DNA of 64,000 bases, taken from NCBI GenBank assembly GCA_021018995.1, contig CM037588.1, forward strand, positions 94,338,765-94,402,764, read 5' to 3'. Both the position numbers and the translations under genes were made by a program. This document shows, one piece after another, positions 21,160-64,000 of the stretch. Origin of the DNA: Chloranthus sessilifolius (lineage: Eukaryota > Streptophyta > Magnoliopsida > Chloranthales > Chloranthaceae). The first letter of the stretch is position 1. Each line of letters opens with the position of its first letter. The notes under the pieces are model-generated. The model was not told the origin of the DNA. It saw nothing but the letters and a program-made list of their open reading frames with translations, and made no database searches.

Positions 21160-21665
21160 TTTGAAATGCCAGGCTATTGTTTCAGCTTGCATTTCGACTA
21201 TATACTATTGTTTCAGTATATAGTCTCCCTACGTTGGGATTTGAGCCACAGAGCTATTGTTTCAACCTGTGTTCAGCCATGTACTATTGTTTCAGTGTAT
21301 GGTTCCCACGTTAGAGGTATGGGGCCTGAGCCATAGAGCTATTATTTCAGCTTGTGTTCAACCATATACTATTGTTTTAGCATATGGTCCCAATATGAGG
21401 GCAAAAGGGGTCTAAAATGCAAGACTATTGTTTCAGTCTGCATTCTGACTATGTACTATTGTTTCAGTATAGTCTCCCTACGTCGGGATCTGAGCCATAG
21501 AGATATTGTTTCAGCCTATGTTTAGCCATGTACTATTGTTTTAGTGCATGGTTCCCACATCGGGGGTATGGGGCCTGAGCCACAGAACTATTGTTTCAGC
21601 CTGTGTACAACCATATGCTATTATTTCAGCATATGGTCCCATATCCGGGTTATGAGGTCAAAGGT
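21160..21665 (+). repeat. Two ~250-bp repeats built on CTATTGTTTCAG
   Basis: The dodecamer ctattgtttcag, with small variants, occurs about fourteen times, every 30-45 bp. The whole block repeats twice (21160-21410, 21410-21665). A shorter, diverged single version is at 19250-19410 in the first unit. Confidence 0.85.
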
Positions 21666-21715
21666 TGACCGAACAAATTTGTATATTTCGAGAGGGTAAA
21701 ATGGGGGTGTCTACA

Positions 21716-26633: not shown

Positions 26634-29109
26634 TTACTCAGTTGGTGATGAGGGGTATGGTACAAGTGCCAATGATGGAGGTGTTAGTAAAGCTAGAAGT
26701 GAGATGGGGCTACTCGAAAATTCAGCCTCTGAGTCGAACACCACATCGGTAGAAGTTGTATAAGATTATTCTTCTAGAACGGGTTCCTCATATAGCTCAG
26801 GCCCAACCTCCTTGTAGAGAGCATCAATACTCTCTTTCTCTGCTATCAACGCGTTATACTTTTCATTCAAAGTCTGCTACTTCTCTTCAACCTTTTCTTT
26901 TTCTTTCAAATCATCCTTAAGTTTACAAATCACTGCAAACTTCTCTTTAGCTTTAAACCTTAGCTTTTTTGCTTCTGCGTTCAATTTGTCCGGTGTGATG
27001 AAGCTATTGTTAGTAATGGATTATATATGTTTCTTCTGGTTATCACAGATCTAAATTAAATAGTCTTTGTCCTCTTCAAGCTTTAATAATTATCCTTCTG
27101 CCATTGTGAGCTGATGAGTCTTCTCATCTAGTTGGACATTGAGTGTATGTTAGTACTCAAGATGGGCAAGTTCCCTCTCATTAGGGTCTGCAGCTAAAGA
27201 TTTGACCCTTTATGTCAGGTGTGTTGTTACTTCTTCATTCTTTTTCTTCTCTAGCTGCCAAGTCTACTTTTCTTCCTCCGTTACTATGTTCTGTTCTTGT
27301 ATTTGTGCAATTTGATGATGGAGGTGAGCAGTTTGCCTTTTGTACTTCATTTATTGTTTCGGCTCTCCACTAGGCTTGACGATCTCTTCTGCCTAGTGCT
27401 TAAGATTTTTCACCAATTCTCGACATTCTTGTGCAGTTGGTAGTGAATCAAGGACTCTAGTTTTCATCCTATGAATCTCTTCCATTAACCTTCGTACCAA
27501 ACCTGGCAACGGTAGTAAATTCGGCGCATTTTTATTCTACCACTATTCTAATTCTCACAATCTCCTTTCCCAGTCAGGCTGCTCTCCTGAAGAAGTCGGA
27601 ACTGATGTGGTAATAATGGGAGGAGATATTTCTTCATTTACCAATTCTTGAAACCCACTCATGGAGTTTCAAAACTTGGTCTTGCTTTGGCTGTCTGAAT
27701 AATAGAAGTTTGCTCTGTAGTTGATGTGACTATGGGTGGTGGAGTAGTAGACTCAGAGGGAATGATAACCAAGCTTGAAGTAGCCACTTCAGGGTTATGT
27801 TGTTCACCCATTAGTGGTCGGATTTCCTCTGCTTCAGATTTAATTAGGCCTGCAAGTTCTGCTTCAGATATAACTGGCATTGTGTCTACCACATGTAAAG
27901 ATGACATGGCAGGCCTTGTTGGTGATTCCAGGGTTATGTCATAGAGATTGTGGTGCTCTTGTGGAGGCTCTAACATAATCATCAATTCTGGCTCAGCCGG
28001 TCTCTCAAGCATTGGGGAGTTATGCTCCAGTCTCTCTTGGAGTGTAGTAGAAGTACTCACTCCCTCCGTCCTCAATAGGAGCGGTGAATTCTGTTATTGT
28101 TTCAACACCAGGCTCTTCCTGGATTTTAGTATTTGCCTCTCGGGCCTGTGTGGTCTCTGGCATAGAAGATACACCCTTTGACGAGATAGAATTAGGTATC
28201 TTCTTTTTATTTTCAGAGTTCAAGTTTCTCCTATAGGCCGTCAATGTTAGGCCCTCCTTTGATCTATCCAAAGCTTTTTCCTTGGGTTCAAATTTGTATC
28301 CCACATTCATCAGTAAATTGATAATTAGGCCTCTGAAAGGAAGGCTCAACTTATTCTTCTCATATTTATCTTTGTTCAAATTTTCCCTCACAATGTCGAT
28401 TACCTCTAAGAGGTAGGAGGGTACATCAAACCAAAAGTGGTTAGCCATCAGATATAAGGCTTTCACAAAGAGGGCTCTTCTCTGGGTTCCATGCCCGGTG
28501 GGATGGATAGTCTTATGAATCAAGATATCCAGGAAATAAAGTGATAAACTTCGAGCTTCTAGATCCCTCCATAAGAAATATGACCTATCACTTGGGGGTT
28601 CTCCTAGCAGTTTTGTGGTCATTTGGACAAAATCCGGAAGGGTATGGGGAGGGATTCTTAACATATTGGCTTCCAGATTGCCAAGGGACAATTCTGGTCT
28701 CTCTAGTGATGCACTCAGAACACTAGCATCATTTCCTCTGTTAATTGAATTGAAAATCCATCAACAACCATGGAGAGAATTGGAGATGGACCCTGGCTGT
28801 TATTGATCATTCTTTTGTAAAACAGCTTCACCAGTCTAGGGTGGATTGGCGTCGTTCTAGGCTCTAGGAAATAATTAAGCCCTGCATCTTTGAAGTACTT
28901 AAGGGCAGCTTTACTGAAGTCCAACTTCTCCCAAAAAGCGATATCCACTGCAACTTCGGCTCACACAAAATGATGGTTCATTGAGATTGGGGGCCGATCC
29001 AATGTTCTTTCGGTGGATGAGGACTTTTTGCCTTTATCTATTTGTTTGCCCTTTTTAGGAGCAGATACAGTTTCCATTTCAATCTCCTTTCCTCCTTTGG
29101 GTAGCTCTC
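26634..29109 (-). pseudogene. Element D ORF2, 3' part (transposon-domain and coiled-coil protein)
   Basis: Continuation of ORF2 from 42826-42653 after removing element B and one CTCTC copy; the frame joins exactly. The first block has YFLEPRTTPIHPRLVKLFYK and 'IQLTEEMMLVF' (28948-28715), resembling 'putative plant transposon protein' domains; then 223 open codons (28691-28020) with LSLPFRGLIINLLMNVGYKF; then a Ser/Thr/Glu-rich linker (28075-27659); then Lys/Glu coiled-coil sequence (about 27550-26780) and an acidic tail ending in TAA at 26634-26636. Breaks are a TGA near 28960 and frameshifts near 28720 and 28050. The function is unknown; a role in trans mobilisation is only a guess. Confidence 0.6.
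29105..29109. repeat. Target-site duplication of element B, left copy
   Basis: CTCTC immediately before TGTGCAAC. The matching CTCTC is at 42653-42657 after ...GTGTCTACA. The pair shows that 29110 and 42652 are the true ends of one insertion. Confidence 0.85.
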
Positions 29110-29290
29110 TGTGCAACTGTGGGAATCGAGACGATCCCGTCGCGACGATGCGCTCTCAAACGAAAAAATATAGAGTCACCACTCGGAGCTTTCGGTGTCC
29201 CGGGATACCTAGTTCATTTTTATGAGCACCGAAGTGCTAAAAATATGACTCTGAATCCGGTCCACACTAAAGGCTCTTAGGTAGGGGCTT
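29110..29290 (-). repeat. Element B 3' LTR remnant
   Basis: Nearly identical to 41063-41247, the U5 end of the 5' LTR (shared: 'aaaaaatatagagtc', 'ctttcggtgtcccgggatac', 'gagcaccgaagtgctaaaaa'). Identity stops abruptly after 'aggggcttcg'. The other 1.4 kb of LTR, including U3 and its TG start, is missing. Confidence 0.9.
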
Positions 29291-31160
29291 CGCAGGTGCC
29301 CCTGTTGAAAGCAGGGTTCGATATCTTTGGGCGAACCCATCGATCCCAAAGTTTATTTAGCATGACCACCTGAGCGAAGTGAATAGATGTCACAACGCTT
29401 TTTGAGTGAGCATGCCATTTTTTCGAAAGCATGCCTCAACTCAGCATGACCTAGAGTATCCAGTTTTGACCTCCTTGAATAGATCCAACCAAACATTGGG
29501 CACCTCCTAAAAGGAGGCATCCAATCCTGGTCTTTGTTGACAATGATCATAATTATCAATTAACTATGCATAATCATGCACCCATCGAGGGCAATAAGCA
29601 ATAACAAAGGCGATGGAAGCCCCGACCCGGACCTGCCCGGGTACAATTTACGGGGACAAACGACCATCATACGGATACCCAGACGCATGGCGTACACTTT
29701 ATAGGGATACCGCTGCCCATACAGGTTTTAAGCCTATAGAAAATAAAAGGGAAATGAACCCTTCTGAATGCATTGTTGGACATAGTTCGATTGACACATA
29801 ATCTCATTCTCAACAGGTTGGTCTCAACCAACGATTGACCTTTTCCAACGGAGAATTTGAAGCTTAAGACACTTAAGTTCGCATGAACCCAAAGACAGCG
29901 CTTGGCTCAAAAAATTTAGCAGTGGAGTTGACTCAATCGAAACATTGACTGTTTGACCGGGACTGACACCGTTGCTCTTTCCTTGAAGAAGGATCCAGAA
30001 TCCAAGGCGTGCCTTAGACTTAGGACATTAATTTTGCACAACTGCATTGTCGATAAAATATTGACATTTTACCGCATCGAAAATATGCGAGTGCGTAGCT
30101 ATGCGTAGCATGAAAACATAGATTTCTTTTTCTTTTCGAAATGATTTTTATCATCATTTTTTTATTTATTTTTAGACCTGACGTCGGTGGTGAGATGCTT
30201 TATCTGATTTGTCCATCGCTAAGAAGTTGCCCGCTTCGAGGCTTTGGACCGTGTGATGTTCCTGCACATTCTTGAGAAAGCGTCAGTCCCTTTTGTTTAT
30301 ATATAAAAATACATCCTAAACAATAGAAGAAAAAGTAGATTTCTACCTACACTTTTTCATTTTCAATATATATATATATATATTTTTGGGATTTTTGTTT
30401 TTTGAGATTTTTTATTATTTTTCTTCAATTTTGAGATTGAAATATGATGCTGGAAATATGTACATGAAAATGAGTAGAAATATATACACATTTTTTGGTG
30501 TTTGGATTTTTCTTGATTTTTTTTTTTTTTTTTGGCTTTTCTTCTTTGTTTTGTTTTGTTTTTGATGCCTTGATAGTGAGATGGAGTAACGGGTCCCATT
30601 TTGAGCATAGTCGAATTCTTTCATGCAGTCGGACCTGAGTGAGTTTCTGGATTTTACCAAGGCCGCAACGTTGATCCCTTTGGATTGAGTTAAACCTTTC
30701 TCCTTGCCTCGGGTCATACATTTGACGGTGCGGGTTTCACAAAGACAATTCCGGTCGGGACCCGATTCGAACTAGCATGAGCGGCCCAGTCGGACAAGAG
30801 GGTACAGGAAGAGTAACAAAATGGTTCCTCAAACATCAATCTTTTCAATCAGTCCAAACCTTTCTTTTTCAATTTTTTTCTTCTCTTTTTTTTTAACTCC
30901 CTTTTTTTACCTGTGGCGCCCTTTCGGGTTTTCACCACGTCCATGGGTTTAGCTCTCTTACCCCAAGCGCCCTTTCGGGTTTTCACCTGGTCCGCACGCC
31001 CGCTGTTTTTACCCATAATGCCCTTTCGAGTTTTTACCACGTCCATCATGCTTTGAGCTTTTATTTTATTTTTTATTCTTTTTTTTTTTTTTTTTCAAGA
31101 GCCACAATCAAAGCATGATCTCTCTCTTTCTGCTTCGGGTAAGCCTGATTCTATGATGAT
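29291..31160 (-). other. Element B 3' region
   Basis: No convincing gene. It holds a remnant of the integrase end (SGLPEAERER after a TGA near 31160), a poly-T run (31080-31096), the GTGAAAACCCGAAAGGGCG minisatellite, an AT run at about 30366-30382 and poly-T tracts at 30517-30533. The part from 29291 to about 30360 has no match elsewhere in the window. Confidence 0.6.
30912..31046 (-). repeat. Minisatellite GTGAAAACCCGAAAGGGCG, three units
   Basis: On the minus strand, three units of about 50 bp share GGT(G/A)AAAACCCGAAAGGGCG-type cores at about 30919-30942, 30966-30990 and 31018-31042. Translated it gives VKTRKG repeats, but nothing suggests it is coding. I recall similar repeats from the 3' ends of plant Tat/Ogre elements. 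Confidence 0.8.
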
Positions 31161-31919: not shown

Positions 31920-33100
31920 TCACTTGTAGAGGCATTCTCCGCAAATGACGTAACCTGCCGCTAAACATTGAATGGTTCGTCGATCTGTCTTGGATGTACC
32001 CTCTTGGAAAGTTAGGGTCTCGAGGAAATTCTTGATATCTGAGAACCAAGGTGGCTCATCATCAGGCCTTGTAGTTTCCTCAATCTGGAGGCAGAAGGCC
32101 AGCTCATTCCTCTGCTCGATCACGATCGGCTTCATCTCAACATCATAGGGGATTTCAATCATTGACGCCAAAGTTGCTAATGCATTGGCAAAGCAATTCC
32201 TTATCCGAGGGACGTATGAGAAAGTCACATCTTGGAAGCAAGCTATTAGATCCTCGAGGTGTTCATGATAGGGGATCAGTTTCTCATCTTTCATCTTCCA
32301 GTCACCATTCATCTGGCATATGATTAACTATGAATTGCCAAATACTCGAAGGTGAGTTACATTCAGATCGAGAGCCTCCTGCAAACCAGCGGCGCAAGCT
32401 TCGTACTCAGCCATGTTGTTAGTGCAAGGGAAGTTGAGCTTGATGGAGATTGGTACATGGGATCCTTTTGCTGAAATTAGGATGGCGCAAACTCCTTAGC
32501 CCTCGACATTTGCTGCCCCATCGAAGTGCATTACCCATGATTCTTCTGCTTCTTCAGCATCGTCTTCTGTCATGAACAGGATGTCCTCATCGGGGAACTC
32601 AGTTCTCAAAGGCTCATAATTAGGTAAAGGATTATTGGCAAGATGATCAGCAAGCGCCTGCCCCTTGATCGATTTCTGAGTGACGTACATGATGTCGAAT
32701 TCTGATAATAAAAGCTGCCATCGTGCGGTTCGTCCAGTGAGAGCTGGCTTTTCAAATAGGTATTTTAATGGGTCCATTCGGGCCAAGAGCAGAACCGCCT
32801 GAGATAGAAAATAGTGGTGAAGCCTTTGAGTAGCCCATACAAGAGCTAGGCATGCTTTCTCCAAATGAGAGTAGCGCGTCCGTAATCAGTAAACTTTTTG
32901 CTCATATAGTAAATGGCCTACTCTCTTCTTCCTGTTTCATCGTGTTGCCCCAGGACACATCCCATCAAAACTTTAGTCGTGGAGAGATACATCAAGAGTG
33001 GTCTCCCTGGCTCAGGTGGTACCAAAACAGGTGGATTAAGGAGGTAGCTTTTGATTTTTTCGAACGCTGCCTGACAATCGTCATTCCATTCAACAGGCAA
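31920..33100 (-). pseudogene. Element B native and archaeal-type RNase H
   Basis: Native RNase H/connection: EWNDDCQAAFEKIKSYLLNP (about 33090) to TARWQLLLSEFD (about 32715). Archaeal-type RNase H follows: first Asp in VMHFDGAANVEG (about 32520), Glu in TNNMAEYEA (about 32420). The third position reads VFGNS where Asp is expected, and the last reads CFANALATLAS where FADALATLAS is seen in element C. Both changes are GAT to AAT, so two of four catalytic acids are lost. Stops occur near 32918, 32498 and 32330. Confidence 0.85.
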
Positions 33101-33900
33101 ATTCTTCCTTAGTAACTTGAAGATCAGCGTGCAAATTGGAGCTAGCTATGCAATGAACCGACTGATATACTGTATTCTACCCAAAAATCCTCTAACCTCT
33201 TTCTCGGTAGACGGCGATGGCATTTCAGTGATGGCTTTGACTTTGATTGGGTCGATCTCGATCCCCCTCCTACTGACGATGAATCCTAATAGTTTTCTTG
33301 ATATAGCACCAAATGCGCACTTCTATGGATTCATACATAGTCGATACTTCCTCAGCCTTTCAAACAGCTTCTGAAGGTTTACCAGATGGTCGCTTCGCTT
33401 CGGTGATTTAGCTATCATGTCATCGACATACACTTCAATCTCTCGGTGCATCATGTCATGAAATAGTATAGTCATAGCTCTCTGGTACGTTGCACCGCCA
33501 TTCTTCAGCCCGAATGGCATGACTCGATAGCAAAAGGTTCCCCAGGGGGTAATGAACGCTGTCTTCTCGTGATCAACCTCTGCCATTTTGATCTGATTGT
33601 ATCCTAAGAATCCATCCATAAATGAAAGCATCCCGTGCTTAGCCGTGTTATCAACCAAGATGTCGATGTGTCGTAATGGGAAATCTTCCTTTGGGCTCAC
33701 TTTGTTCAAATTGCAAATATCGATACACATGCGGACCTTTCCATCCTTCTTTGGTACGGGCACGATATTGGCTAGCCACTACAGGTATTTGGATACCATG
33801 AGAAACCCCGTGTCATACTACTTGATGACCTCGCCTTTGACTTTTAGCATCCATTCGGGTCAGAGACGTCTCAGCTTTTACTTGACTGGCTTCATATTAG
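33101..33900 (-). pseudogene. Element B reverse transcriptase
   Basis: RT blocks in order are VPKKDGKVRMCIDICNLNKV (33760-33700), MLSFMDGFLGYNQIKMAE (about 33635-33580), FCYRVMPFGLKNGGATYQ (about 33540-33485), and the catalytic YVDDM at 33417-33430. The core is open for 146 codons (33763-33323). Before it, stops TAA (33878-33880, after KPVK) and TGA (33860-33862) match stops in element C, and the first also matches A. After it, a TAG replaces a Gln kept in C (LNPQKCAFG). Confidence 0.9.
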
Positions 33901-37140: not shown

Positions 37141-39747
37141 TTAGAACGGGGCTACATTATTATTATTGGGCCGAGTGTTCGCAACATTTTGCACCTCTGC
37201 CCCTGTCCTCCTGTCGTTCTTCTGCTTAGTAAACCTCCTAACCCCGCTAAGGCCCCCTGAAGCATTCTTACTCAACCGCCCTTCCCTGATGGCATCCTCA
37301 CAGTGGTTGGCATTCCTCCCCAAATCAGCAAAACTGGACTGCTGTTGATATAGAAGAAAATCGAAAATCACTGGTAGAGTGTTCTTTGAAATCATCTCTA
37401 TTTGCGCATCGTCTGGTATTCTATTTCTGATTTGAGCTGTCAGTGCTCTCCAACGCCCCAAATAGTCGCCAAAGGTCTTGTTGGGATTCTGTTTTAAACT
37501 GGCCAAATCAGACTTGCGTGGTTCAATATCAGTATTATAGACATACTGTTCCTGGAATAAATGCATCAAATCCTTCCATGTCTTCATCATGGATGGTTCA
37601 AGAGATGTGAACCACCTTAGGGCCGGTCCGTTCAAACTTTTCTGAAAGACTTTTATTAGCAGTCTCTCGTCCCCCCCTGTACTGGCACATGTCCCCACAA
37701 TAAGACTTGAGGTGTGCAATCGGGTTGCCTGTGCCATTGTACTTGTCGAATATTGGCATTTTAAATTTGTGGGGCAAGGGGACCTCGGCAAACAGACATA
37801 AATCCGTGAAATCCGTGGCGTGGATTTCATCACCACCCATTTTTAACAATTGTTTCTGGATGTTGTCTAGTTGCTCCCTTAACTGTTCTGATTCTTTGGA
37901 TATGGGAGCCATTTTTTCAACAGCTGGCTGGGACTCGCTCTAGGCTACCAGGGGATGGGTAATTATGGGAGGAGGGTTGAGGCTGGTCAAAGCCCCAGCA
38001 TAGGCCCCGCTATTCATAATCTCGTCCTCTTCATACTGCTAGTCGGAATAGTGTGCAGTGAGGGCGGGATTCTCCTGTTGTTGTTGTATGGGTTGGATGG
38101 GAATGACATAAGTGGGGGTTAGGTGAGCCCATTGGGGGTGAGGAAAGGTTTGTTGGGTGATGGGAATTTGGTTTTTAGGTGGGGCCTGATAGGGCCATTG
38201 GGTATGGGGGAAGGTTTGGAGATGGCCTTGGGGTGTGGGGCCATGGGAGAATTGGGTTTGAGGTATGGCATGAGTTTGGCCGGCTGTGAAGGTTGGGTTA
38301 AATGTTGGGGGTATTGTGGAAGGTATGAGTGGGGGGTTTGGGTTTGGGCCATGAACCCTTGGTCATTTTGGGTCATGGGCCACTGATAGGTTTGGGCCAT
38401 AGACCCTTGGTAGGTTTGGGCCACGGGCCTTTGATGGGTCTGGGCCTGGGTAGGTTTGGGCCAAGGGCCCTTGATGGGTCTGGCCCAAAGGGCCTTGATG
38501 GGTATGGCCCAATGGACCTTGATGGATCTGGGCCATTGGGCCTTGATGGGTCTGAGCCATGGGCCCTTGGTGGGTCTAGCCCAATGGGCCTTGATGGGTC
38601 TGGCTCAATGGGCCTTGATGGGTCTAGGCCATGGGCCCTTGGTGGGTTTGGGCCAATGGGCCTTGATGGGTCTGGGCCATGGGCCATTGGTGGGTTTGGG
38701 CCATGGGTCCTTGGTGGGTCTGGGCCATGGGCCCTTGGTGGTTCTGGGCCATTGGGCCTTGATGGGTTTGAGCCGTGGGCCCTTGGTGGGTCTGGGCCAT
38801 TGGGCCTCAATGGGTTTAGGCCATGGGCCCTGGGTAGGCTTGGGTGGTGGGGTATTGGGTTTAGGGTTTAGGGGTAAGTGGGTAATGGGGGTTTGGGTGG
38901 TGTGGATTTTGGGGTGTTGATGGGGGTCATGGGGGAGTGAGGCATGAAGATTGGCTAGGGTATGGGATGGGTTCATGGGCATGGGGTGTGGAGGAGAGGG
39001 GGTGTTTTGAGAAGCCTTCCACATGGAATAGGCTTGGAACATCTCCTCCATCATAGCCTTGGAAGGAGGATCAGATGTGGACGGTGGGTTTAAGGGGTGA
39101 TTGGGTATAGATGGGGCGGAGGTGGCAGAAAAATTGGGCATGGCCCTGGTATAATCGGGCATGACCATGGTAGATGGGGGGGTATGGGGTGGATGAGGGG
39201 ATGTATTGGGTATATTTTGGGATGATGGGGGGCATGATGAGGAGGGATGAGGAAAATTGGGCATGGCCCCGATAAAAATGGGCATGACCCGGATGGATGG
39301 GGGATTTTGCGGGGGGTTGGATAGGGTGGAAGTGGTGTATGTGAATGTGGGTGGATCGGGTCTATAGGGGGATGATGAGAATTGGGGCATGGATGTAGAT
39401 TGGGAAAATGGGTTTGGGTTTTGTATGGATGTGGATGGGAGATGAGTTGGACTTGGCATGGCTTGGACAAAAGATGGAGAATGGGGGGTTGCATTTTGGA
39501 TATTTTGGGGGGTAGTGGTTGGGAAAATGGGGGCGCCAAATGGGCCGATAATGGTAAAAGGGGGTTGGGTGAGGGGGATGATGGAAAAAACTTCTCCCGA
39601 ATGGGAGTGGGTTGGAGAATGTGGCGGGGATGAGTCGGGATCGGCGTAGGCCGGGTCCACTACCCACGACATTCTTTGGGAGCGGGTCGGGTAAGGGTGC
39701 CTTGGATAAGGCCCAAAAATCCTCCTCCTTCTTCTCCTACGGGACAA
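37141..39747 (-). pseudogene. Element B gag, N-terminal and capsid part
   Basis: Starts at an ATG at 39747 with a basic segment (SRRRRRRRIFGPYPRHPYP). A 380-codon open run follows, rich in Pro, Ser and His, and ends in decapeptide repeats of the type GPWPRPTK. The capsid core is at 37912-37141: KMPIFDKYNGTGNPIAHLK, LNGPALRWFTSLEPSMMKTW, RWRALTAQIRNRIPDD. Two frames are used around 37700-37680 and the frame breaks near 38120-37920. Gag packages the element RNA. Confidence 0.85.
38340..38850 (-). repeat. 30-bp coding minisatellite in gag of B
   Basis: About seventeen imperfect 30-bp units based on GGGCCATGGGCCCTTGGTGG (plus strand), encoding proline-rich decapeptides on the coding strand. The unit length keeps the frame. 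Element C has the same kind of repeat at about 56090-56470. Confidence 0.9.
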
Positions 39748-41043
39748 CGGAGGGCAAGTTGATGCCGTTGTGCCGGCACAACAGACTATCTATTTCTTTT
39801 TGGGTTTTAATTATTTAATTTATTTATTTTTGTGAATTTTTTTGAAAGAGTTTTGAAAAATAAAGGTTCCGAGGCCTTGGAATTCCCTTTTCTGGTGGCT
39901 CTCGTACCTTAATTCAAGACTAGTGGCTACGATTTCGAGGCACTTCGAAAGAATTGAAGGAGAACCTTCGATCTATTGAAGGCATAAAAATCGAGGCAAA
40001 CAACCCGATCCCCTGAAATGAGCTAAAAAGAAGTTGCCTTCTCTTTACCTGCGGGGGCGTATTGGGTGTCAGAGATGGCGGGACCCAAACAAGGCACTAA
40101 GCACACTAATCGGGAAACTCAGGATGTGAAAAGGGCCTAGGATTCGGGCTGGTGGGCTGATAAACAAACCTGGCGCAACTAATACATGCGGCCAAAGGTT
40201 GAGACCACTTACATCGCAACTATTAGTTGCGCCAAGGTAAAACTTGATTTAAAGTCGCAACTATTAGTTGCGCCATTATAATTTCAAGAGTTACATTGGC
40301 GCAACTAACTAATACTTGCCTGTAAAACCGGTTCTCCATAATCGAAAATAGCGACCAATCGATGCGAAATGAGTCTCTTTTTGGTTTTTGTGAAAGCTAG
40401 GCTTAGAATTAGTGATCGATTCTCCTCACCACACCTAATGTGTTTGAGTCCGATATAACTTCGTTTTAAGCTTTAGAATGGGAACCCACCCGATATACCT
40501 CCGGCGCAAGCGCCTTCTCAGATACTAGGTGGGCTGGGACTTTTCTGGATCATCACCACTAGGGGCTGCCGCCATACTAAGACCTGGGTGTTTATGTGTT
40601 TGCCTAATCCCAACCCCTTTGAAAATCTAACCTGCAAAATAAATTAATTAAGCTCCTTAACTTGGTTCAATTTTAATTTTTTCAAAGCTTTTTTTTTCTT
40701 TTTTTGGAAGTTTTCTTTAGTTCAAAGACCAGGGGTGATTACCCTATGCCGCCACTACGGGCCGGTGTCCACTGTTAGGATATGAGTGCGCAAGTAGGCC
40801 CGCCAATCGGCTAAGACACTAAAATAACGGAAAAGTAAGGAATTTTAAAAGACAATGCGCATGTAGGCCTGCCGATCGGCTAAGGCATGTAAATGACGGA
40901 AAAGTAGGGGTGAGAAAAATGACTTAATCGGAGGGGTGAGTTAAAAAAAATAGTGAAAATAAGAAAAAAAACAGCAATAAATGTTAGGAAAAAAAAAAAA
41001 AAGAAAAGGCATAGTTCAAGGGGAAGCTCTACTAGCTAAAAAT
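39748..41043 (-). other. Element B leader (PBS to gag)
   Basis: A 1.3-kb untranslated leader. Next to the PBS are two copies of GGCCCGCCAATCGGCTAAG-type sequence (40795-40820 and 40856-40887). Farther on are four GCGCAACTATTAGTTGCGC-type words (40171-40320). No ORF is supported. Confidence 0.75.
40171..40320 (-). repeat. Four palindromic words in leader of B
   Basis: Copies at 40171-40193 (diverged), 40214-40234, 40255-40275 and 40296-40320 (diverged) of TGGCGCAACTATTAGTTGCG-type sequence. The two middle copies have near-perfect arms around TAT. Confidence 0.9.
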
Positions 41044-41060
41044 CCCCAGCAGAGTCGCCA
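41044..41060 (-). other. Element B primer-binding site
   Basis: On the minus strand TGGCGACTCTGCTGGGG, the tRNA-Arg-type PBS used by Tat/Ogre elements, two bases after the 5' LTR. It is identical to the site of element C at 54038. Confidence 0.92.
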
Positions 41061-41062
41061 TC

Positions 41063-42652
41063 TGTGCAACAGTGGGAATCGAGACAATCCCGTCGCGATG
41101 ATGTGCTCTCTAACGAAAAAATATAGAGTCGCCACCCGGAGCTTTCGGTGTCCCGGGATACCTAGTTCATTTTTATGAGCACCGAAGTGCTAAAAATATG
41201 ACTCTGAATCCAGTCCACACCAAAGGCTCTTGGGTAGGGGCTTCGGTTATCGATCGAGAAGGTGTTAGACACCCGATCAACCCACTTAACGAGGTCTCTA
41301 CTTATGGCCAAAAATAAAATGATGTAAAAGACAAGGAAATGGTTCCCTCTTGTCCAAATGAGCCTCCAATCCTATTTGTGCCCCTTCGTTCCTACCAAAA
41401 ATTCGGTGGCATAACGACACAAATGAGAGAGTAGGGAATGCCAAAAGGAGATAGGAGAAGAAAGGGGAGAGCTAGAGCCCTCGGGCCCTTGTAGTACCAT
41501 AGGAGAGCCTTGCTTTGGCTTGCTTTGATGAGCTTTTGAAGGCTTGTATGGTGGAAAGAGGAGTTCTAACCTCTAAGGCTTACTAACTAAGAGGTAGAGA
41601 GGGAAGGTGAATGGGTAGCATATACCTAAACTAAGGGATCTAAGGTGAAAAATTTCACTCAAAGGAGGTTTTGAAATTCTGGAATTTGTATGGGAAGTGT
41701 GCACCAAAGGGAGAAAGATCTTCTCACTTTAAGCTCTTTCTCTCTTAGGCCAAAATTCTCAACCCTTAAACCAGGGGGGGGGCTCTATTTATAGGAAATG
41801 AGTGGATTAGGAGGGTGTTTAGATGCTAAACATGGTTAAGAATTAGGTAAGCTAACATCTAAGGTTTCCTAGGGTTTTTGGAGCCTTGAAATGTGTGAGA
41901 AGGTCCTCCAATGGTGGATGATGGGGTGAGACCTTAAGCCACTTAAGGGTTTGCAAATAGGTAGTGAATGGGTGCAACAGAACTAGCAAAACACACTCCA
42001 AAGGTCAAGGTGGTCAACAAGTTAAATCCCAATCACGAATTTCGGAATAAAATCCAACATCGTTTCATGCGCGCAACTAATAGTTGCGCTGACAAATGTA
42101 CAAAGAAAAAAGAATAACAAGAGCTTTGGAAGTTGGCTTCGCGAGGGGTGGGGGGACCCATTTATACATGGTGCAACTATTAGTTGCACCAGGCCATTTC
42201 TGGGGGAAAAAGACCTGGCTCAACTATTAGTTGCGCTAGGCAAATCCAAGGGGAAAATGGCCTGGCGCAACTATTAGTTGCGCAGGCAAAAATCCCTTCA
42301 AAAGAGTTCGATTTTCGAATCACCGTAACTTTTGATATACAACTCCGATTGAGGTGATTCTTAGCTCGTTGGAAATTTGGAGAAGTCCTCTTTCTAATGA
42401 TATATGATTGAATATTAGTAGAAGACCTCCGCTAGTCCTGGTGTACCATTCTTTATCCATTGCTCGGGAAGGTTAGGTTTAGGGTTTGGAATGGGTTCTA
42501 AGGGTTGGGACTTGTTTCTAAAGGTTCGGGATAGGTTCCTAAGGGATCTAGGGTGATTCCTAAGGGTTCCATACATGACATCAAAAGCTCAAAAAGGTGC
42601 CTCTCTCTAAATGTGTTTCGATCGGGCCTTGGGCCAAATTTGGGTGTCTACA
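41063..42652 (-). repeat. Element B 5' LTR
   Basis: 1590 bp, minus strand from TGTAGACACCCAAATTTGG (42652) to CCCACTGTTGCACA (41063). It has a TATA box (CTATAAATAG, about 41785-41794). U3 holds four palindromic words at 42071-42283 and an 'aaagaggacttctccaa' box near 42385, also in C. It begins like the C LTR (TGTAGACACCCAAAT) and ends like the remnant at 29110. Confidence 0.92.
42071..42283 (-). repeat. Four palindromic words in U3 of B LTR
   Basis: GCGCAACTAATAGTTGCGC (42071-42089), GGTGCAACTA-T-TAGTTGCACC (42170-42190), a damaged copy (42218-42237) and GCGCAACTATTAGTTGCGC (42265-42283). Arms of 9-10 bp are perfect in three of the four. They lie about 280-490 bp upstream of the TATA box. 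Confidence 0.92.
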
Positions 42653-42883
42653 CTCTCTGATAACTACCCCAGAGGATTTAGATTTCTTCGTAGGTGGGTC
42701 TGCTATTTTTGATTTACCAATGAAGGCAGTAGCCCATGCGATGTGCCTCAGGAGTGGAGAATGATCGAAGATATTACCTTCCTCTTCTTCTTCTTCCCTT
42801 TCCTGTTTGTCCTTAGATCTCGACATGGTGTAATTTTTCACCTTCAATAATTCGCAAAACCAATTTAGTGCTCCAAAATACAT
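42653..42883 (-). pseudogene. Element D ORF2, 5' part
   Basis: Start of ORF2. The likely ATG is at 42826 (SRSKDKQEREEEEEEGNIF), with a second in-frame ATG at 42883. It contains LLRHIAWATAFIGKSKIADP and a Lys/Ser tract, then is cut at VVIRE by element B. Reading resumes in the same frame at 29109 (LPKGGKEIEMET) once B and one CTCTC copy are set aside. Confidence 0.7.
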
Positions 42884-45194: not shown

Positions 45195-46609
45195 TAGTAT
45201 GGTTTTATTGTACTTAGCCTTAACCTATTGCAAGCGCACAACAGAAATTGTAGAACTAGTATAGGATCGTTCCCATAGGGAGGGTCAATCTTTCTTTTTC
45301 CTTCTTCTTGTGAAAACTTTTATTTACCTTTTAAAGGTTGAGAAATATGAATAAAAGAATGATTGTTAAACTAATTTATGATAAAAGTAAATCTAAATCC
45401 TCCTACTTCCAAACTATGGCGATCAATCAAAATCCTTCAGTTCTCGGATGCTTACAAAAGTAACATCCCGTTACACTTTATCTCAGTCCTCTAGAATTTG
45501 GGTGTCAATCAAAAACTAGATTTCCTTAACACAGATTTATATTAATCAACAATCCTTCAGAAATTTGGGCGTCAATTAAACTCAAGAAAACTGAAGATGG
45601 AAAATAAAAACCGTCACACTAATCTGTAAATTCAAGACTGTAGTCGCCAATTAAAATAAAAAACTCTTAGATGTTTACAAAGCAGTAAATAAAAGTAGTA
45701 AATCTAAGCTAGAAAGCAATGTATAACCATTCAAAGGGTTGATCTTTCAGACTCTTCGGTCTTGGTTGTCAGGCAAGACTTTCAGGAATCCGTGGATGAT
45801 TTTACTTGATAAAAACTACTCTAAGGTGATCTTCCAGAATTCCAACCTCAGTTGTCAATTGATGCTGAGAATTTCTTAGATAAATTTTTTCTTGATGCCA
45901 AGCCCTCTTATTTATAGATCATAAGGGGTCGGTTTATATTATTCAATTCTAATAAAAGTAAACTACTAAGAATAAAAGTTCCCTAATAAAACTAAACTTC
46001 TAATCTTAATCTTCCTTGCTTTGGATGGTTGATGCGCTCAGGACTTTTCTCCTTATTTTTAGTAGCAAAGATTTTTAGGAGTCTTTCACTAAATTTCTGA
46101 GATCCGTGGGTTGCCAGACTTCTAATTTAAGAGATCTTCTAATTCTGTGCATGGCGGTGTAGTTCTCACGTGATTAATAGCAGCAACAAGAGCTTTAATT
46201 TTTATACAATCGTAATTACGATCGCATCTCTTTCTGTACGATTTCTCATTCTTTCGTTCTAAGGCACAATCGTATCTCTGCTTTGTATCCTCCGGTCTTT
46301 AAGGGTTTTCTGAAGAATCGTGAATACGATTTCTTCTTTCTTTCTTCTGTTTCGTTCGTTCGAGATTTACGATTGGACGTAAACTCTCTCTTCCTTTAGC
46401 CTTCAGACTGGTTCTTACTGTGATTAGTCGTATCTGCGTACGATCATGATTCTTACTGCATTTTGAGTTCATTTTGGTGAAGATTAACACTTTGGCTCTA
46501 TTTTGCTATCTCTTCTTAATATCCGCACATCATCATAGCATTAGTAGCAAACTAGGGTCTAACATCAGTAAGTTAAGGGTGATAAAATGGTAAATTACGT
46601 GACTGATCA
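45195..46609 (-). repeat. Element D 5' LTR
   Basis: Direct repeat of 23358-24762. It starts TGATCAGTCACGT at 46609 (minus strand). A TATAAATAAG box is near 45906-45915. U3 (46200-46455) carries a cluster of AATCGTA/TACGATT words. The 3' edge has drifted (TACTA instead of TATCA). Confidence 0.88.
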
Positions 46610-47475
46610 CTCAAGTATCCAACGTTACATAATAAACTGGAAACTTAATTCCTCTGCTCTAACATCGAAAGGACTCTCTTCCAATGATCCTAAAATAAAG
46701 ACTCCAAACAAAATTGTAAAACCTAAACAAATCAACACAAACCAAGAACAAAACCAACTAAACTTGCACACATAACTAGAGCAATCAAAGTCAAAACCAA
46801 CACGCGAACCTATACCCTAACCAACACCAACCTCTATACCCTAACCAACACCAACCCCTACACCCTAACAAAAACCAACTACCATACTTTGACCAGGATT
46901 AAAACCAACTCTCCAATGCCACGCCAATCAATGTCACCTTTTACAACCCGTTATTCTAACAAACTCAATCAAGCCCTCAACTCGCATACTATACCAGACA
47001 CTCATTCACCCCTGCCCTAGTCCATCTGGCTAGCCTAATCCTTAGAATTGAACCTCCCTTTAATCACGTCCATACTTTTCACTCACAAGCAGATATTCGT
47101 GTCCCTCACACCATTGAACCTGAAGTCACTTTTCACGCTGAACCGATCACTAAAATCATTAAAATCCAATCGATCACTAATCCTACCCCAACTCAACCAA
47201 TCACTAAAATCTTTTAAATCCAACCTATCACCAAACTCACCCCGAACCAACCCATAACCAAAATTGACACACCAATTCCTGAACTAACCCAACAGACCGT
47301 CGAAATCACCAAACATACTCCCAAAATGCCCCAACCTATCGCTAAAATCACCAAATACAATTTTGAATTCACCCAATCGATCCGTAAAATCAACATACCT
47401 ACCCCCAAACTAAATCAACCTACCTTTAAATCTGACAATTTACCAACAAATGAACCAATCCCCATGCTCCATGAG
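46610..47475 (+). pseudogene. Element E gag, 3' part and linker
   Basis: Resumes the gag interrupted at 23357: QRYIINWKLNSSALTSKGLS matches the position of 'MRHIKGGDLTLSIVTSKVG' in element A. After a stop near 46773 comes low-complexity sequence. The part at 46800-46870 repeats 'aaccaacaccaacc', and 47130-47400 repeats a PITKI(TK) peptide (QPITKI, QPIAKI). It breaks off at 47475, where TGTAACATCCCC begins. No protease of E was found. Confidence 0.75.
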
Positions 47476-52483: not shown

Positions 52484-54035
52484 TGTAGACACCCAAATCT
52501 GGCCGAAGGCTCGATCAGTCTGTACTCTGAGAGAGATGTACCCCTGTGCTTCCGATGGTACCCCTGAACCCTTAGGAATCACCCCTAAACCCTAGGATCC
52601 CTTCCCAGACCCAACTTGAACCCTTATGAGCAATTGATGGGAGGAGAGCTACAAAATTTTACATAGACCATTTCCGAGGATGAGCTACATATCTTTGGAA
52701 AGAGGACTTCTCCAACTTTCTATCAAGCCAAAGATCACCCAATTTGGAGTTATGGTTCAAAAGTTATGGCCAATTGAAGTTTTACATAAAATCATGACTT
52801 TTACTTAGGCGTATGTATTACATATGCCCAGCAAATTTGGCCCCAGTTTTTCAGGCGTATATAATATATACGCCTGGCATATTTGGGCCAAATTTGGCTG
52901 GGCGTATATAATACATATGCCCAGCATCGTTAGGGCCCCCCACGGGCACCCACCTTCTCAGATCTCCTCTGGTTTTCATTAAAATCACTGTACATAAACT
53001 GGGCGTATGTAATATATACGTCCAGCTTAGCTTCAGTAACTATCATCAGATGCTCAAAATTCCTTCATCGAGTTTGACCTTTTGACCATCCCCTTGGTTG
53101 AGGTGGGTGTCTTAAGGTTGGTTGCACCCCCTTTGAGCTTATATGCAACCCTTAAGTCACCTATGGTCTTCCCCCATCATCTGCCATTGAAACCGGTTCC
53201 CCAAACCCCTAGGACTCTAAAAACCTAGAAAGCCTTAGATGGGGGATTACCTAATTACTAAACCAATTAGCTCTTAAGTAACCCTCTAACCCACCTTTTC
53301 TCTATAAATAGAGAGGTCCCCCCTATTCCCAAAGGTTGAAAAAAATTAGGGTTAAAAGTGTGAGCTTAAGAGAGAGAGCCCTAGTGAGAGAAAGTTTCCT
53401 TTTATTTTTTATTCTTCAACCAGAATTTCAACATGCTTAGTTCACCCCTTTCAATCCATTTCAACAATTAGATCACCCCTTTTTTAGTCAAGCTTAGTCT
53501 CTAGCTTCATCCTACACTTCCCATCTACTGAATCCTAGCATTAGAATCCATTCCCCTACCATTTAAGCCATTTAAAGCCATCAGAAGGACACCGAAGCGA
53601 AGGTTTTCTATGGTGCAACAAGGGCCCGTGAGCTCCGGCTCACCCCTCTCTTCCTCTACCTTCTTGGTGTTTCCTCCGTCCAAGGATTCAAGCCGTTACT
53701 CCACCGAAATTTCGGTTTGGCTCAAAGCTTGGTAGGACCATATTGACTTCGGGCAAGAGGAAGCTCCGCCCATTTATTTTTCAATTTGGCCATAGATAGA
53801 GACGACTACGTGTGGGTTGATCAGATGCCTAAACCCTTCCCAATCTATAACCGAAGCCCCTACCCTAGAGTCTTTGGCAAAAATCGATAAATCAGAGTCA
53901 TATTTAGCACTTCGGTGCTCAAAATATTGATTTAAAGGTTTCCCGGGTCACCAAAAGCTCCGGGTGGCGATTCTACATTTATTCCATTGTGAGCGCATCG
54001 TCGTGACGGGTTCGAGAGAATCCGATGGTCGCAAA
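52484..54035 (+). repeat. Element C 5' LTR
   Basis: About 1550 bp from TGTAGACACCCAAATCTGG to ...GATGGTCGCA. It has the TATA box TCTATAAATA (53301-53310). U3 carries four GGCGTATATAATATACGCC-type words (52807-53025) and the 'gaaagaggacttctccaa' box near 52700. The U5 end resembles B's, inverted in the window ('agcacttcggtgctc', 'cccgggtcaccaaaagctcc'). Confidence 0.9.
52807..53025 (+). repeat. Four palindromic words in U3 of C LTR
   Basis: At 52807-52829 (GGCGTATGTATTACATATGCC), 52853-52875 (arms AGGCGTATATA around a central A, 11 bp each, perfect), 52899-52925 and 52999-53025. Each is followed by (CC)AGC or TGGC. They lie about 280-500 bp upstream of the TATA box. Confidence 0.92.
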
Positions 54036-54037
54036 GA

Positions 54038-54055
54038 TGGCGACTCTGCTGGGGA
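54038..54055 (+). other. Element C primer-binding site
   Basis: TGGCGACTCTGCTGGGGA, tRNA-Arg-type PBS, about two to four bases after the LTR end. Confidence 0.93.
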
Positions 54056-55394
54056 TATCACCCTAGCGCTTCCCCTCTTGTTGGCCTTTTTTTAATCTTT
54101 ACTAACCATTGTTGTTTTTCTGAGTTTCTGCTGTTTTTCCTTCATTTTTGTTATTTTTACTAACATACTCACCCCTACGATTCAGTCCTTTAAGTGCCTT
54201 AGCCGATTGGCGGGCCTACTTGCGCCTTTAAATTTCAGTTTTTACGATTTTGTCATTTAAGCCGCCTTAGCCGTTTGGCGAGCCTGCTCGCATTTACTTT
54301 TCACGTCATTTAAATTTCAGTCATTTACGAGCCTTATCCGTTTGGCGGGCCTACGTGCGCTCTTTATTTCAGTCATGATATCTCACCGTTGAACGCCGGC
54401 CCGTTGAGGCAAAAGACTTAAATTCACTCCCCTTTAAAAATCTGCAATTAAAAGTGAACCAACAGTGTGGGGACATAATCAAATTAATTTTTGCATGTTT
54501 TGGGTAGTTTTCGGGTGGTTTAGGCGCAGATATAACTTACCCGGTTCCCAGTAAGGTGGCAGCCCTAATGGTGATGATCCTGAAAGAACCACCCCTTCCA
54601 GTACCCGAGAAGGCGCTTGCGCCAGAGGTATATCGGTTGGGTTTCCAATTCCGATCAAGCCGTAAAACCCGCAATGGTGAGAGCGTAGACAGCCCAAATT
54701 AAGCTATGTATCCCTAGGAAGCGGAAAGGAGTGACCCGATAACATACACAGCAGTCCCCGGGAGCATCCCTCCCAGGAAACCAGTTCAAAAAGACCCATT
54801 TTGCGCTTGCTGTTCACTGTCAAACCAAGCTGGAAGAACAGTTTTTGCCAGGTGTGTATATTAAATACGTCTAGCTAAATATCCCCAGAAATACTTAGGC
54901 GTATATAATATATCATGACCAAAATCAGATTTAAGCGGTATATAATATATCTGACCAAATCTGTAGTTTTAATTGTGTATAATAATACATCGCCCGATAT
55001 AAATCGGGTTCGAACCCGATCTGAGGCCCAATCCACCACCCAAGTTCCCCGATTAGCGGTATTAGTGCCCGTAGTAGCCTCCCGCATTCTATAACACCCA
55101 ATATGCCCCCGCCCAGTCAAAAGAAGGCGACTTCTCATTGATTTGCTCTAGAAGATCGGGTCATTTGTGTGGATTCCCTCACCTTCAATAGAACGAAAGG
55201 GTTCCCTTTCGCTTCTTCTGAAGTGTGTCGGATCCCGCTGTGGGACCTACTAAAGGTGCATATATCAGGCGAGACGGGAATTTTCCCTGGGCACCAAATC
55301 ATCATTCATTTAAATAGGGGAGTTAATTTCCATTCGAAAAATCCAAAAAATATATATAAAGAAAAATAAAAAATTAAAAAATATATATATACTC
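54056..55394 (+). other. Element C leader
   Basis: A 1.3-kb untranslated leader. Three copies of GCCTTAGCCGATTGGCGGGC-type sequence lie at 54196-54225, 54264-54292 and 54331-54360. About four GGCGTATATAATATA-type words follow at 54847-54995, mostly half-decayed. No gene is supported. The order matches element B's leader. Confidence 0.75.
54847..54995 (+). repeat. Four palindromic words in leader of C
   Basis: At 54847-54875, 54894-54920, 54932-54955 and about 54967-54995. They resemble the U3 words, with the right arm damaged in the later three. Confidence 0.8.
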
Positions 55395-61303: not shown

Positions 61304-62015
61304 TAGAAGTTGAGACATCTTTGACCTGAATGGATGTTTAAGGTGAAGGACGAGGTCATTAAGCAGTATGACGTGGGTTTCCTCAAGGTATCCAAGTACC
61401 CGCAATGGCTGGCCAATATCGTCCCCGTACCGAAGAAGGATGGGAAGGTTTGAATGTGCATTGATTTCTGAAATCTTAACAAGGCAAGCCCTAAGGATGA
61501 CTTTTCGTTACCACACATCGATATCTTGGTCGATAACACTGCTAAGCACGGAATGCTCTCATTCATGGATGGATTCTCGAGCTATAATCAGATTAAGATG
61601 GCAGAGGCCGACCGAGAAAAGACTGCGTTCATCACTCCTTGGGGTACCTTGTGTTACAAGGTCATGCCATTCGGGCTCAAAAATGCCGGGGCAACCTACC
61701 AGAGAACAATGACGGCCCTGTTCCATGACATGATGCACAGAGAGATTGAAGTGTATGTCGACGACATGATTGCCAAATCACCGGAAAGGGATGACTACCT
61801 GATAAACCTTAAGAAGCTGTTCGAGAGGTTGAGCAAGTACAGGTTGCGGTTGAATCCCCAAAAGTGCGCATTCGGCATTATATCAGGAAAATTGTTAGGC
61901 TTTATTATCAGTAGGAGAGGGATTGAGGTCGATCCGACCAAGATCAAGGCCATCATTGAAATGCCACCACTGTCTAAAGAGAAGGAAGTCAGAGGCTTTT
62001 TAGGCAGAATCTAGT
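61304..62015 (+). pseudogene. Element C reverse transcriptase
   Basis: After TAG (61304-61306) and TGA (61322-61324), both at positions also stopped in B, the RT blocks are IVPVPKKDGKV (61417-61450), MLSFMDGFSSYNQIKMAEAD, LCYKVMPFGLKNAGATYQR, the catalytic YVDDM at 61754-61768, and a connection ending at FLGRI followed by TAG. The core is open for 162 codons (61526-62014). Confidence 0.9.
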
Positions 62016-63219: not shown

Positions 63220-64000
63220 ACGAACGATGTCATCTACGGCGATCTCCTATACAGATTCTCACAACAATGTTCTGCTCCGACGCCTAACCGAGAGAGAAGC
63301 GGCTGAGATCATGAAGGAGATCCATGAAGGAGTCTGCGGGGCACACATCAGTGGACACATGCTCGCTAAGAAAATCCTAAGGCAAGGATACTTTTGGACC
63401 ACTTTAGAGACTGATTGCTACAAACACGTTTAGAAGTGCTACAAGTGCCAAGAACACTCCAGTCTAATACATGCTCCGGTCATTGATTTACACAGCATGA
63501 CCACTCTTTGGTCGTTCGCCACCTGGGGTCTCAATGTCATCTGCAAGATCAATCCTAAGGCTTCCAATAGACATTAGTTCATCCTCGTCGCAGTGGAGTA
63601 CTTCACGAAGTGGGTAGAGGTAGCCTCCTATACGAGCATTAAGGCCAGTCATGTCGAGAAGTTCATCAAGAACAACATTATTTGCAGATTTGGAGTGCCC
63701 AAGGATATCATCACTGATAATGGCACTAATTTCGCTAATAGGCGCATACAAGCCTTGTGTGAGCGGTTCCAGATCATGCATCATCGATCATCCCCATACA
63801 GGCCTCAGACGAACGGAGCTGTAGAAGCGACCAACAAAACTCTTATCTGCATTCTGGAGAAGATGGTAGTCACTTATAGAGATTGGACTGAGCAGTTATC
63901 CTTCGTGCTTTGGGCCTATAGAAGGTCTATCTGTACCGCTATAGGGGCAACACCATTCTCCCTTGTGTATGAAATCGAGGCTGTGCTACCCGTTGAGGTC
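63220..64000 (+). pseudogene. Element C integrase (cut by window end)
   Basis: HHCC domain HEGVCGAHISGH and CYKCQEHSS (63323-63465), with a TAG between. In the core the first catalytic Asp appears lost: WGLNVI (about 63525-63543) where B has WGLDVV. The second Asp is in DIITDNGTNF (63708-63735) and the Glu in TNGAVEATNKT (63811-63843). The frame then continues to the window end (EAVLPVEV). Confidence 0.85.

Follow-up and report, generated by a model that had tools for sequence, protein, structure and literature searches.

Among the literature on palindromic motifs in the long terminal repeats (LTRs) of Tat or Ogre elements, as far as its accessible text goes, the nearest known case is the work on Sireviruses. 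These Ty1/copia elements carry repeated motifs (RM boxes) in their LTRs, which are element-specific palindromes built around a common signature (Bousios et al. 2010, PMC2829016). In the accessible text of that paper, each element has numerous similar copies ahead of its TATA box and a second cluster elsewhere, mostly before the envelope gene; a CGG-CCG core is present in 12 of the 13 elements listed. In the Mutator-like VANDAL elements, family-specific motifs in tandem repeats evolve with the VANC anti-silencing proteins, the word being short and of one orientation and the partner protein known and element-encoded (available portions of PMC5735166); VANC proteins and VANDAL target motifs are also treated in the accessible part of PMC10398659. 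Here we describe two LTR retrotransposons, element B (minus strand) and element C (plus strand), in a stretch of 64,000 nucleotides from Chloranthus sessilifolius (GCA_021018995.1, contig CM037588.1, positions 94,338,765 to 94,402,764 of the forward strand; hereafter the window). Each carries two arrays of a 21-bp dyad, the word, one in the U3 (unique 3') part of the LTR and one in the untranslated leader.

These arrays resemble the Sirevirus and VANDAL cases in kind, and differ from them in element class, dyad scaffold, U3-plus-leader layout and recorded intermediates. Like RM boxes, the words are palindromes whose letters are specific to the element within a common pattern, and they are present in many similar copies per element, with one cluster upstream of the TATA box and a second elsewhere. 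Unlike them, they belong to Ty3/gypsy elements of Tat type, follow the pattern GGCG...TAWTA...CGCC, which does not contain the CGG-CCG core, recur in steps of about 47 bp and have their second cluster in the leader; co-change of U3 and leader and intermediate words are also documented here. With the VANC target arrays they share tandem-repeat motifs that differ between related families, the difference being a 21-bp dyad in an LTR retrotransposon with a putative partner. Two further systems bear comparison, as far as their available text goes. In Tnt1 of the Solanaceae, U3 regulatory modules diversify while the coding part stays alike, as in the present case; the strings 'palindrom' and 'tandem' are absent from the main text of that paper, and no matched second array was seen in it (PMC1838419). 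Retand, a Tat relative, has tandem repeats, which lie between pol and the 3' LTR, and its own candidate DNA-binding protein, since its antisense open reading frames (ORFs) encode a possibly DNA-binding TRP28 domain (PMC11963269). No description of arrays of this kind in Tat elements was found in the literature searched, in which most subscription papers were beyond reach, and no paper was found using the three word strings.

The word has the scaffold GGCG-NNNN-TAWTA-NNNN-CGCC in both elements. The sequence-only reading of this DNA had held that C carries a completely different word from B, which proved incorrect, since 15 of the 21 letters of the two consensus words are identical. The differing letters occupy three symmetric positions per half, within an inner tetramer that reads CAAC in B and TATA in C, in all six indel-free slots. 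In these slots (1-4, 6 and 7), positions 4, 6, 9, 10, 12, 13 and 16 are identical between B and C in 6/6, and positions 5, 7, 8, 14, 15 and 17 differ in 6/6; slots 5 and 8 were left out of the comparison because each has an indel in one element. Mean identity among slots within an element is 16.2/21 in C and 17.8/21 in B, against 11.7/21 between B and C, a value that is the same for corresponding and non-corresponding slots; a word therefore goes with its element and is independent of its slot. In C the leader words are degraded, those of slots 6 and 7 having lost the right outer arm.

A scan of the window with at most two scaffold mismatches returned 13 matches, where 0.5 were expected from shuffles. 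Twelve lie within B or C, and the other is at position 3069. In the 2.17-Gb assembly containing the window, exact scaffold matches number 34,550, and the reversed control gives 3. The 19-base B word matches exactly at 11,538 places and the 21-base C word at 8,531, with 0 matches for their reversed controls. A chance origin of the words is ruled out by the shuffle expectation and these reversed-control counts.

The eight sites of each element form two arrays with a period near 47 bp, rather than the eight dispersed sites that had been supposed, and slots 1-3 are called as tandem by Tandem Repeats Finder. The U3 word centres of C lie 334, 380, 427 and 528 bases from the LTR start and its leader words 806-926 bases past the primer site; in B the centres lie at 378-572 and 731-861, respectively, those of C slot 8 and B slot 5 having been placed by hand owing to indels. 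The ranges first read from the letters (about 320-540 and 790-950 in C, about 370-580 and 720-890 in B) agree with these values. The U3 steps are 47/47/100 in B and 46/47/101 in C, and when four words were placed at random in 220 bp the C steps were matched within 1 bp in 5 of 200,000 draws; common descent is the natural reason for this match. Measured upstream from the TATA box, the U3 slots of B stand at 481, 434, 387 and 287 bp and those of C at 485, 439, 392 and 291 bp, an agreement within 5 bp.

In a MAFFT alignment, B and C align slot for slot, with slot 4 one base off register. The spacers between words are 52% (U3) and 50% (leader) identical and the flanks about 60%; once the words are masked, no likeness between the spacers of the two elements is detectable (p 0.19 to 0.61). 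Slot homology therefore rests on word register and flanking sequence. Within either element the U3 and leader spacers are unrelated (p 0.25 to 0.98). Neither array is therefore a recent copy of the other, and the idea that the leader words were lately copied from U3 is rejected for B and C.

Two other leader sequences, unlike the words, did not switch between B and C. A second repeat near the primer site, CCGATTGGCGGGCCTACTTGCGC, is found at 54203-54225 and 54338-54360 in C, where it is part of a 67-bp tandem repeat, and at 40788-40810 and 40857-40879 in B, one copy being identical over 23 bases in both elements. A short dyad, AAGGCGCTTGCGCC, is identical in both leaders (C 54610-54623, B 40503-40516).

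The primer site has 2,654 exact matches in the assembly, the first 90 of which (L012-L101, all on contig C1) were combined with B and C into a sample of 92 elements. Eight loci taken from the first B-word matches (L004-L011, at six separate places, L011 overlapping L012) all match sampled elements, L010 over just 339 bp in its best match. At three or fewer scaffold mismatches, 574 sites were found in the 92 elements: 257 at -1,500 to -901 of the primer site, 289 at +600 to +1,499 and 28 elsewhere. Since a finder allowing three scaffold mismatches biases scaffold letter frequencies upward, the search was repeated free of the scaffold, for 21-bp palindromes with at least 9 of 10 pairs and at least 4 G+C. 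This returned 289 palindromes, 286 of them in the two array zones, and 264 of these 286 carry TAWTA and a GGCG-like outer arm. Counting only steps that occur at least twice, the commonest are of 47-48 bp (85/163 in U3, 168/183 in the leader); the U3 steps also include 54 of 96-101 bp and 20 of 37-38 bp. The commonest inner tetramers of the half-sites are CAAC (516), TATA (170), CATG (66), TATG (48), TAAC (47), CAAG (46), TGTA (22) and TGTG (19).

For typing, TAAC, CGAC, CAAT, CAAG, CACC, CCAC and CATC were pooled with CAAC, TATG with TATA, and TGTA with TGTG (TGTR), whereas CATG and other tetramers were treated as ambiguous; an array was typed when it had at least two classed half-sites and a 70% majority. 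Both arrays were typable in 68 of the 92 elements (52 CAAC, 15 TATA and 1 TGTR), and the U3 and leader types agree in all 68. The remaining 24 fall outside this count, one or both of their arrays being untypable; they include element C of the window, with its degraded leader words. No typable element pairs one word with another, let alone as often as matched words occur, in line with the joint switching that the sequence-only reading had expected. Elements with a CAAC U3 have 302 CAAC, 1 TATA and 71 unclassed leader half-sites, and those with a TATA U3 have 79 TATA, 3 TGTR, 0 CAAC and 16 unclassed. This agreement, found although the U3 and leader spacers are unrelated in B and C, favours the reading, set out below, of the words as sites for a dimeric factor.

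The arrays might also owe their uniformity to neutral turnover, with unequal exchange or slippage homogenising the 47-bp units of each array and different versions simply passing by descent to the two elements. The tandem calls for slots 1-3 fit such a process, as do leader arrays that seem movable as blocks, and the spacers 1-2 and 2-3 are more alike within an element (z 6.9, inverted, in C; z 6.1, direct, in B) than between elements (z 1.8 and 2.7). However, some 2 kb separates the U3 array from the leader array, and their spacers are unrelated in B and C, yet the types agree in all 68 typable elements; between B and C the spacers are 52% and 50% identical in the alignment, with the scaffold letters retained; and positions 9, 10, 12 and 13 hold one letter in at least 98% of 384 sites of CAAC elements, a figure biased upward because these sites were picked by the scaffold. 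We regard neutral turnover as very unlikely. The concerted change first proposed is borne out in that both arrays change, and is qualified in that part of it is accounted for by local tandem arrays that evolve as units; a leader array also seems to have been moved as a block.

The order in which the words changed was read from a tree of 92 rows and 1,403 columns, based on those parts of the LTR and leader that lie beyond the arrays. The tree was built by a quick method with no bootstrapping and was given a midpoint root, and the direction of drift is therefore one that we infer; L021 and L073 were set to CATG/TGTG by hand, and elements typed on one side kept that type. Eighteen of the 21 TATA elements form one group (support 100), the others being L019, L030 and L082. 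This group adjoins a group of seven (support 93), made up of four TGTR elements, L019 and two untyped elements. Next outward come L021 and L073, with CATG, CATA and TGTG half-sites mixed in their arrays. L090, L067 and L086 follow, with CAAC/CATG hybrids in their leaders, and beyond them lies the broad CAAC set. Around the switch, several forks are supported at 93-94. Intermediate words (CATG/TGTG and TGTR) are thus found in both arrays, branching between the CAAC and TATA groups. The outer letters, too, can vary in both arrays: each of the five sites of L074 begins with A, and L019 has TGC- for GGC- on the left of both leader words and TTGCG-like U3 arms.

The whole tree requires 2 changes of U3 type and 5 of leader type; the LTR-only and leader-only trees require 2 and 3 changes of U3 type and 4 and 5 of leader type, and without L030, L082 and the four untyped elements the word type needs 3 and 5 changes on these two partial trees. 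The difference between B and C hence seems to be the endpoint of small steps in both arrays, and the intermediates make replacement of the word in a single event unlikely. Co-switching is supported, as slow stepwise drift, mostly along one lineage, together with swaps of leader modules (L082, L030) and an altered U3 core in one element (L019). The proposal that the word had been replaced in U3 and leader together holds in the sense that the arrays co-switch, and fails in the sense of a change at once, with intermediates between CAAC and TATA. Rapid change is likewise not borne out, as word type needs 3 to 5 changes on the trees and 77 of 126 fourfold sites differ between B and C in the pieces compared; the two elements are old relatives.

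On balance, we consider it probable, short of any firm confidence, that the words are paired DNA-site arrays for a dimeric factor, which set promoter activity or silencing and co-evolve with that factor. The words would be two-fold symmetric recognition sites made of two facing 10-bp half-sites around one A/T base, one array lying about 290-485 bp upstream of the TATA box in U3 (and expected in both LTRs of a complete copy) and the other in the untranslated leader. A dimeric, sequence-specific protein, supplied by the host or by another copy of the element, would bind both arrays, and the bound protein would set promoter activity or the silencing state. The inner half-site letters would drift from CAAC through CATG and TGTG/TGTA to TATA, a presumed direction, with the outer GGCG and the central TAWTA mostly kept. 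With one protein reading both arrays, U3 and leader would change together, and within arrays the turnover of the 47-bp unit and occasional swaps of whole arrays may assist the change. The partner of the words remains one that we infer, and the same applies to its dimerism and binding, to control over transcription or silencing, and to co-evolution as the cause of the drift.

Several features of the words favour a DNA site for a dimer. The symmetry spans the centre, where a hairpin could not pair, and the central base is A or T in similar numbers (200 and 181 of the 384 sites in CAAC elements). Hybrids whose two halves do not match recur at both ends of the leader array: where CAAC elements have four leader sites at even spacing (25 elements), CAAG or CATG forms the left half of 23/25 first and 20/25 last slots, whereas the middle two slots are mostly CAAC/CAAC. 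Across the leader words of the sample, G-U and A-C pairs are equally common (115 and 113). The U3 words are also better palindromes than the leader words, with Watson-Crick pairs in 71/80 against 41/60 positions in B and C combined (C slot 8 and B slot 5 excluded) and the same trend in the 92 elements.

Some observations nevertheless weigh against the dimer-site reading. G-U pairs are more numerous than A-C pairs in the U3 words of the sample (142 to 101), which leans to RNA. The U3 arrays also fold strongly as RNA (z -10.8 in C and -7.4 in B), as palindromes must; each of the four word regions in B and C outdoes all of 200 shuffles in folding (z -3.8, -5.4, -10.8 and -7.4). These results could be accommodated if the palindromes act as RNA, either as hairpins feeding small-RNA production or as structures to which Gag binds in packaging or dimerisation. 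For the LTR palindromes of maize Sireviruses, a role in small-RNA production has reportedly been proposed. In keeping with it, hotspots of small-RNA mapping coincide with Sirevirus palindrome regions in the accessible text of PMC5311732, and the spacers 1-2 and 2-3 are partly complementary to each other (z 6.9 in C, z 5.0 in B). Folding, though, follows from palindromes by construction. A role as RNA does not account for the recurrence of mismatched-half hybrids at fixed leader slots, for a central TA-W-TA that is symmetric though unable to pair in a hairpin, or for the balance of G-U and A-C in the leader with better palindromes in U3; one copy of the CCGATTGGCGGGCCTACTTGCGC repeat, moreover, stayed identical in B and C in the same leader. 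An RNA hairpin as the main function is disfavoured by the hybrid sites and the pairing counts, and we regard this explanation as unlikely.

The dimer-site reading also has to face exceptions in the sample. The leader arrays of L082 and L030 are of TATA type, 94% identical to each other and next nearest to TATA elements, and the first part of both leaders, together with the 3' part of the LTR in L082, is kin to CAAC elements; no words were found in the U3 of L082, and the upstream sequence of L030 had no match among other sampled elements. Both are most simply taken as apparent mosaics in which the leader module was swapped. In L019, the U3 holds four words with the core YTTTA, in steps of 47-49 (-1234 to -1090 relative to the primer site), and the leader has TAATA, which is a true though partial mismatch between U3 and leader. 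L034, L039, L088 and L089 are untypable in either array, and the leaders of L074 and L076 are of mixed type. Two further points count against the reading. With so few type changes, the 68 agreements represent far fewer independent events, and the agreement between U3 and leader is largely shared descent. CATG halves, in turn, occur at leader end slots across the CAAC set and are not confined to branches near the switch, and the CATG stage is less distinctive than the two later ones.

The elements themselves gave no candidate for the partner. A Pfam search of 15 stretches of B and C, covering part of their ORFs, returned solely gag/capsid, reverse transcriptase, RNase H, integrase (its zinc-binding part included) and G-patch, and in the 1.6 kb past the end of the C integrase there is no sense ORF of more than 81 codons; these results, too, speak against the dimer-site reading. 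The VANC protein (DUF1985) had no match in the 15 stretches, which hold no complete intact copies of the elements, and TRP28 had none in the stretches scanned, to which the short antisense ORFs of 105-126 codons past the C integrase do not belong. An element-encoded partner was thus not recognised in the B and C stretches examined. VOZ-like and MYB-like sites were considered as guesses at a host factor on the ground of a resemblance, and were dropped.

An ordinary, slowly evolving family of host transcription factors with a tolerant half-site, between whose paralogues the element lineages shifted in the absence of an arms race, overlaps the dimer-site reading as a special case. The few type changes over a deep tree agree with it, as do the existence of intermediates and a spacing to the TATA box that hardly varies between B and C; in the available text of PMC1838419, it is mainly in U3 that the Tnt1 subfamilies differ. 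A second array in the leader is not accounted for by this reading alone, and no host factor was identified; we hold it possible, if rather doubtful. Within the dimer-site reading, the words may also be conceived as a drifting lock and key, in which the U3 and leader words of each lineage fit that lineage's own version of a trans-factor whose specificity moved letter by letter (CAAC to CATG to TGTG to TATA). Differing lineages would then be insulated from one another, and a VANC-like anti-silencing or activation system would exist in Ty3/gypsy elements. We offer this only tentatively.

B and C share the primer-binding site TGGCGACTCTGCTGGGGA, a putative match to tRNA-Arg, and the same LTR start; primer sites of the Tat group are complementary to tRNAs other than that for Met. 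Pfam detected gag, reverse transcriptase, RNase H and integrase pieces in B and reverse transcriptase, integrase and G-patch in C, the remaining C sequence resembling B at the DNA level. In both elements reverse transcriptase precedes integrase, which is the Ty3/gypsy order; the Ty1/copia order, with integrase before reverse transcriptase, was not encountered. An additional RNase H domain (aRH) is given as the mark of Tat in the accessible text of PMC6317226, and this domain (RVT_3, PF13456) was found in B and in element A, a further element of the window; in C a stretch resembling RVT_3 is visible in translation alone. By pol order, and in B by the additional RNase H, the two are Tat-type Ty3/gypsy elements, that is, plant non-chromoviruses. 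The Ogre subclade has an extra ORF, which in 57% of Ogre elements carries a plant mobile domain (PMC6317226, accessible part); a proline-rich ORF upstream of gag in B (38608-39789) had no Pfam match.

A protein search with the protease/G-patch ORF of B returned 197 relatives, the best 40% identical, from plants wherever the source names the organism. In IMG/VR, the integrase protein gave two pattern matches, none of them confirmed, and the primer site gave none; the primer site had three matches in bacterial and archaeal contigs, which were taken as chance. The 5' LTR of B and its remaining 3' LTR differ at 10 positions in 185 bp, and GAGAG, read from the sequence, flanks both ends of B, whereas C extends past the window edge. 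The coordinates of these features are collected in Table 1.

Table 1. Positions in the window of the words, LTRs and coding domains of the elements (slots 1-4, U3 array; slots 5-8, leader array).
Feature	Position	Strand	Basis or remark
C 5' LTR, begins TGTAGACACCCAAAT	52484..54035	+	exact LTR-start match; end approximate; primer site next at 54038
C U3 tandem array, slots 1-3	52806..52926	+	period 46, 2.6 copies; Tandem Repeats Finder score 144
C word slot 1, GGCGTATGTATTACATATGCC	52808..52828	+	
C word slot 2, GGCGTATATAATATATACGCC	52854..52874	+	perfect dyad
C word slot 3	52901..52921	+	
C word slot 4	53002..53022	+	
C TATA box TATAAATA	53303..53310	+	
C primer-binding site TGGCGACTCTGCTGGGGA	54038..54055	+	sequence match
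C word slot 5	54851..54871	+	
C word slot 6	54898..54918	+	right outer arm degraded
C word slot 7	54935..54955	+	right outer arm degraded
C word slot 8	54971..54993	+	indel, limits approximate; read from sequence
C RVT_1	61472-62011	+	Pfam
C rve	63578-64000	+	Pfam
B 5' LTR	41063..42652	-	LTR-start match
B U3 tandem array, slots 1-3	42169..42290	-	period 47, 2.6 copies; Tandem Repeats Finder score 153
B word slot 1, TGCGCAACTAATAGTTGCGCC	42264..42284	-	
B word slot 2	42217..42237	-	
B word slot 3	42170..42190	-	GGTG...CACC, one outer pair altered on both sides
B word slot 4	42070..42090	-	
B TATA box TATAAATA	41786..41793	-	
B primer site TGGCGACTCTGCTGGGGA	41043-41060	-	sequence match
B word slot 5	40298..40320	-	right half intact (half-site TAGTTGCGC), indel in remainder, limits approximate
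B word slot 6	40254..40274	-	
B word slot 7	40213..40233	-	
B word slot 8	40172..40192	-	CATG/CAAC hybrid
B RVT_1	33326-33778	-	Pfam
B RT_RNaseH	32499-32885	-	Pfam
B RVT_3	31923-32327	-	Pfam (PF13456)
B rve	31161-31868	-	Pfam
B remnant 3' LTR	29108..29292	-	185 bp, without U3 words
A RVT_3	7099-7497		Pfam (PF13456)

Element B appears to sit inside another coding stretch. Direct repeats at 23367-24763 and 45203-46610, 87% identical over 1.4 kb, flank B and may be the LTRs of a further element that hosts it. The interrupted coding sequence at 28020-28691 and near 42700-42870 (minus strand) may belong to that element. The proline-rich region before gag in B (38369-38906) contains 24-bp repeats, given as 15 overlapping copies of 202 nt in steps of 24.

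Element A carries an array of its own. Its LTR-like repeats begin with TGTAGACACCC at 21715 and 19471, and in 21174-21629 and 19350-19361 (minus strand) the sequence CTGAAACAATAG occurs 13 times with at most one mismatch, where 0.37 were expected. The flanking arms pair better within than between copies (score 90, shuffled mean 67, none of 5000 as high), in a test on 17 sites with at most three mismatches whose copies are tandem duplicates and hence not independent. A constant middle with variable arms is the reverse of the arrangement in B and C. Each LTR-like repeat of element A also holds one long dyad around TGACTCA/TGAGTCA (CGCTCACTGASTCAGTGAGCG type), at 18898-18918 and 20789-20809.

The words could be used as lineage tags for subfamilies of these elements, and element-specific regulatory codes, as known from Sireviruses and VANDAL elements, are suggested for Tat-type elements too. 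If the words are binding sites, this genome would hold tens of thousands of natural variants of one dyad site, with two arrays per element serving as mutual controls and with intermediates placed on a tree, and the co-change of a regulatory word and its reader across many sites would become directly testable.

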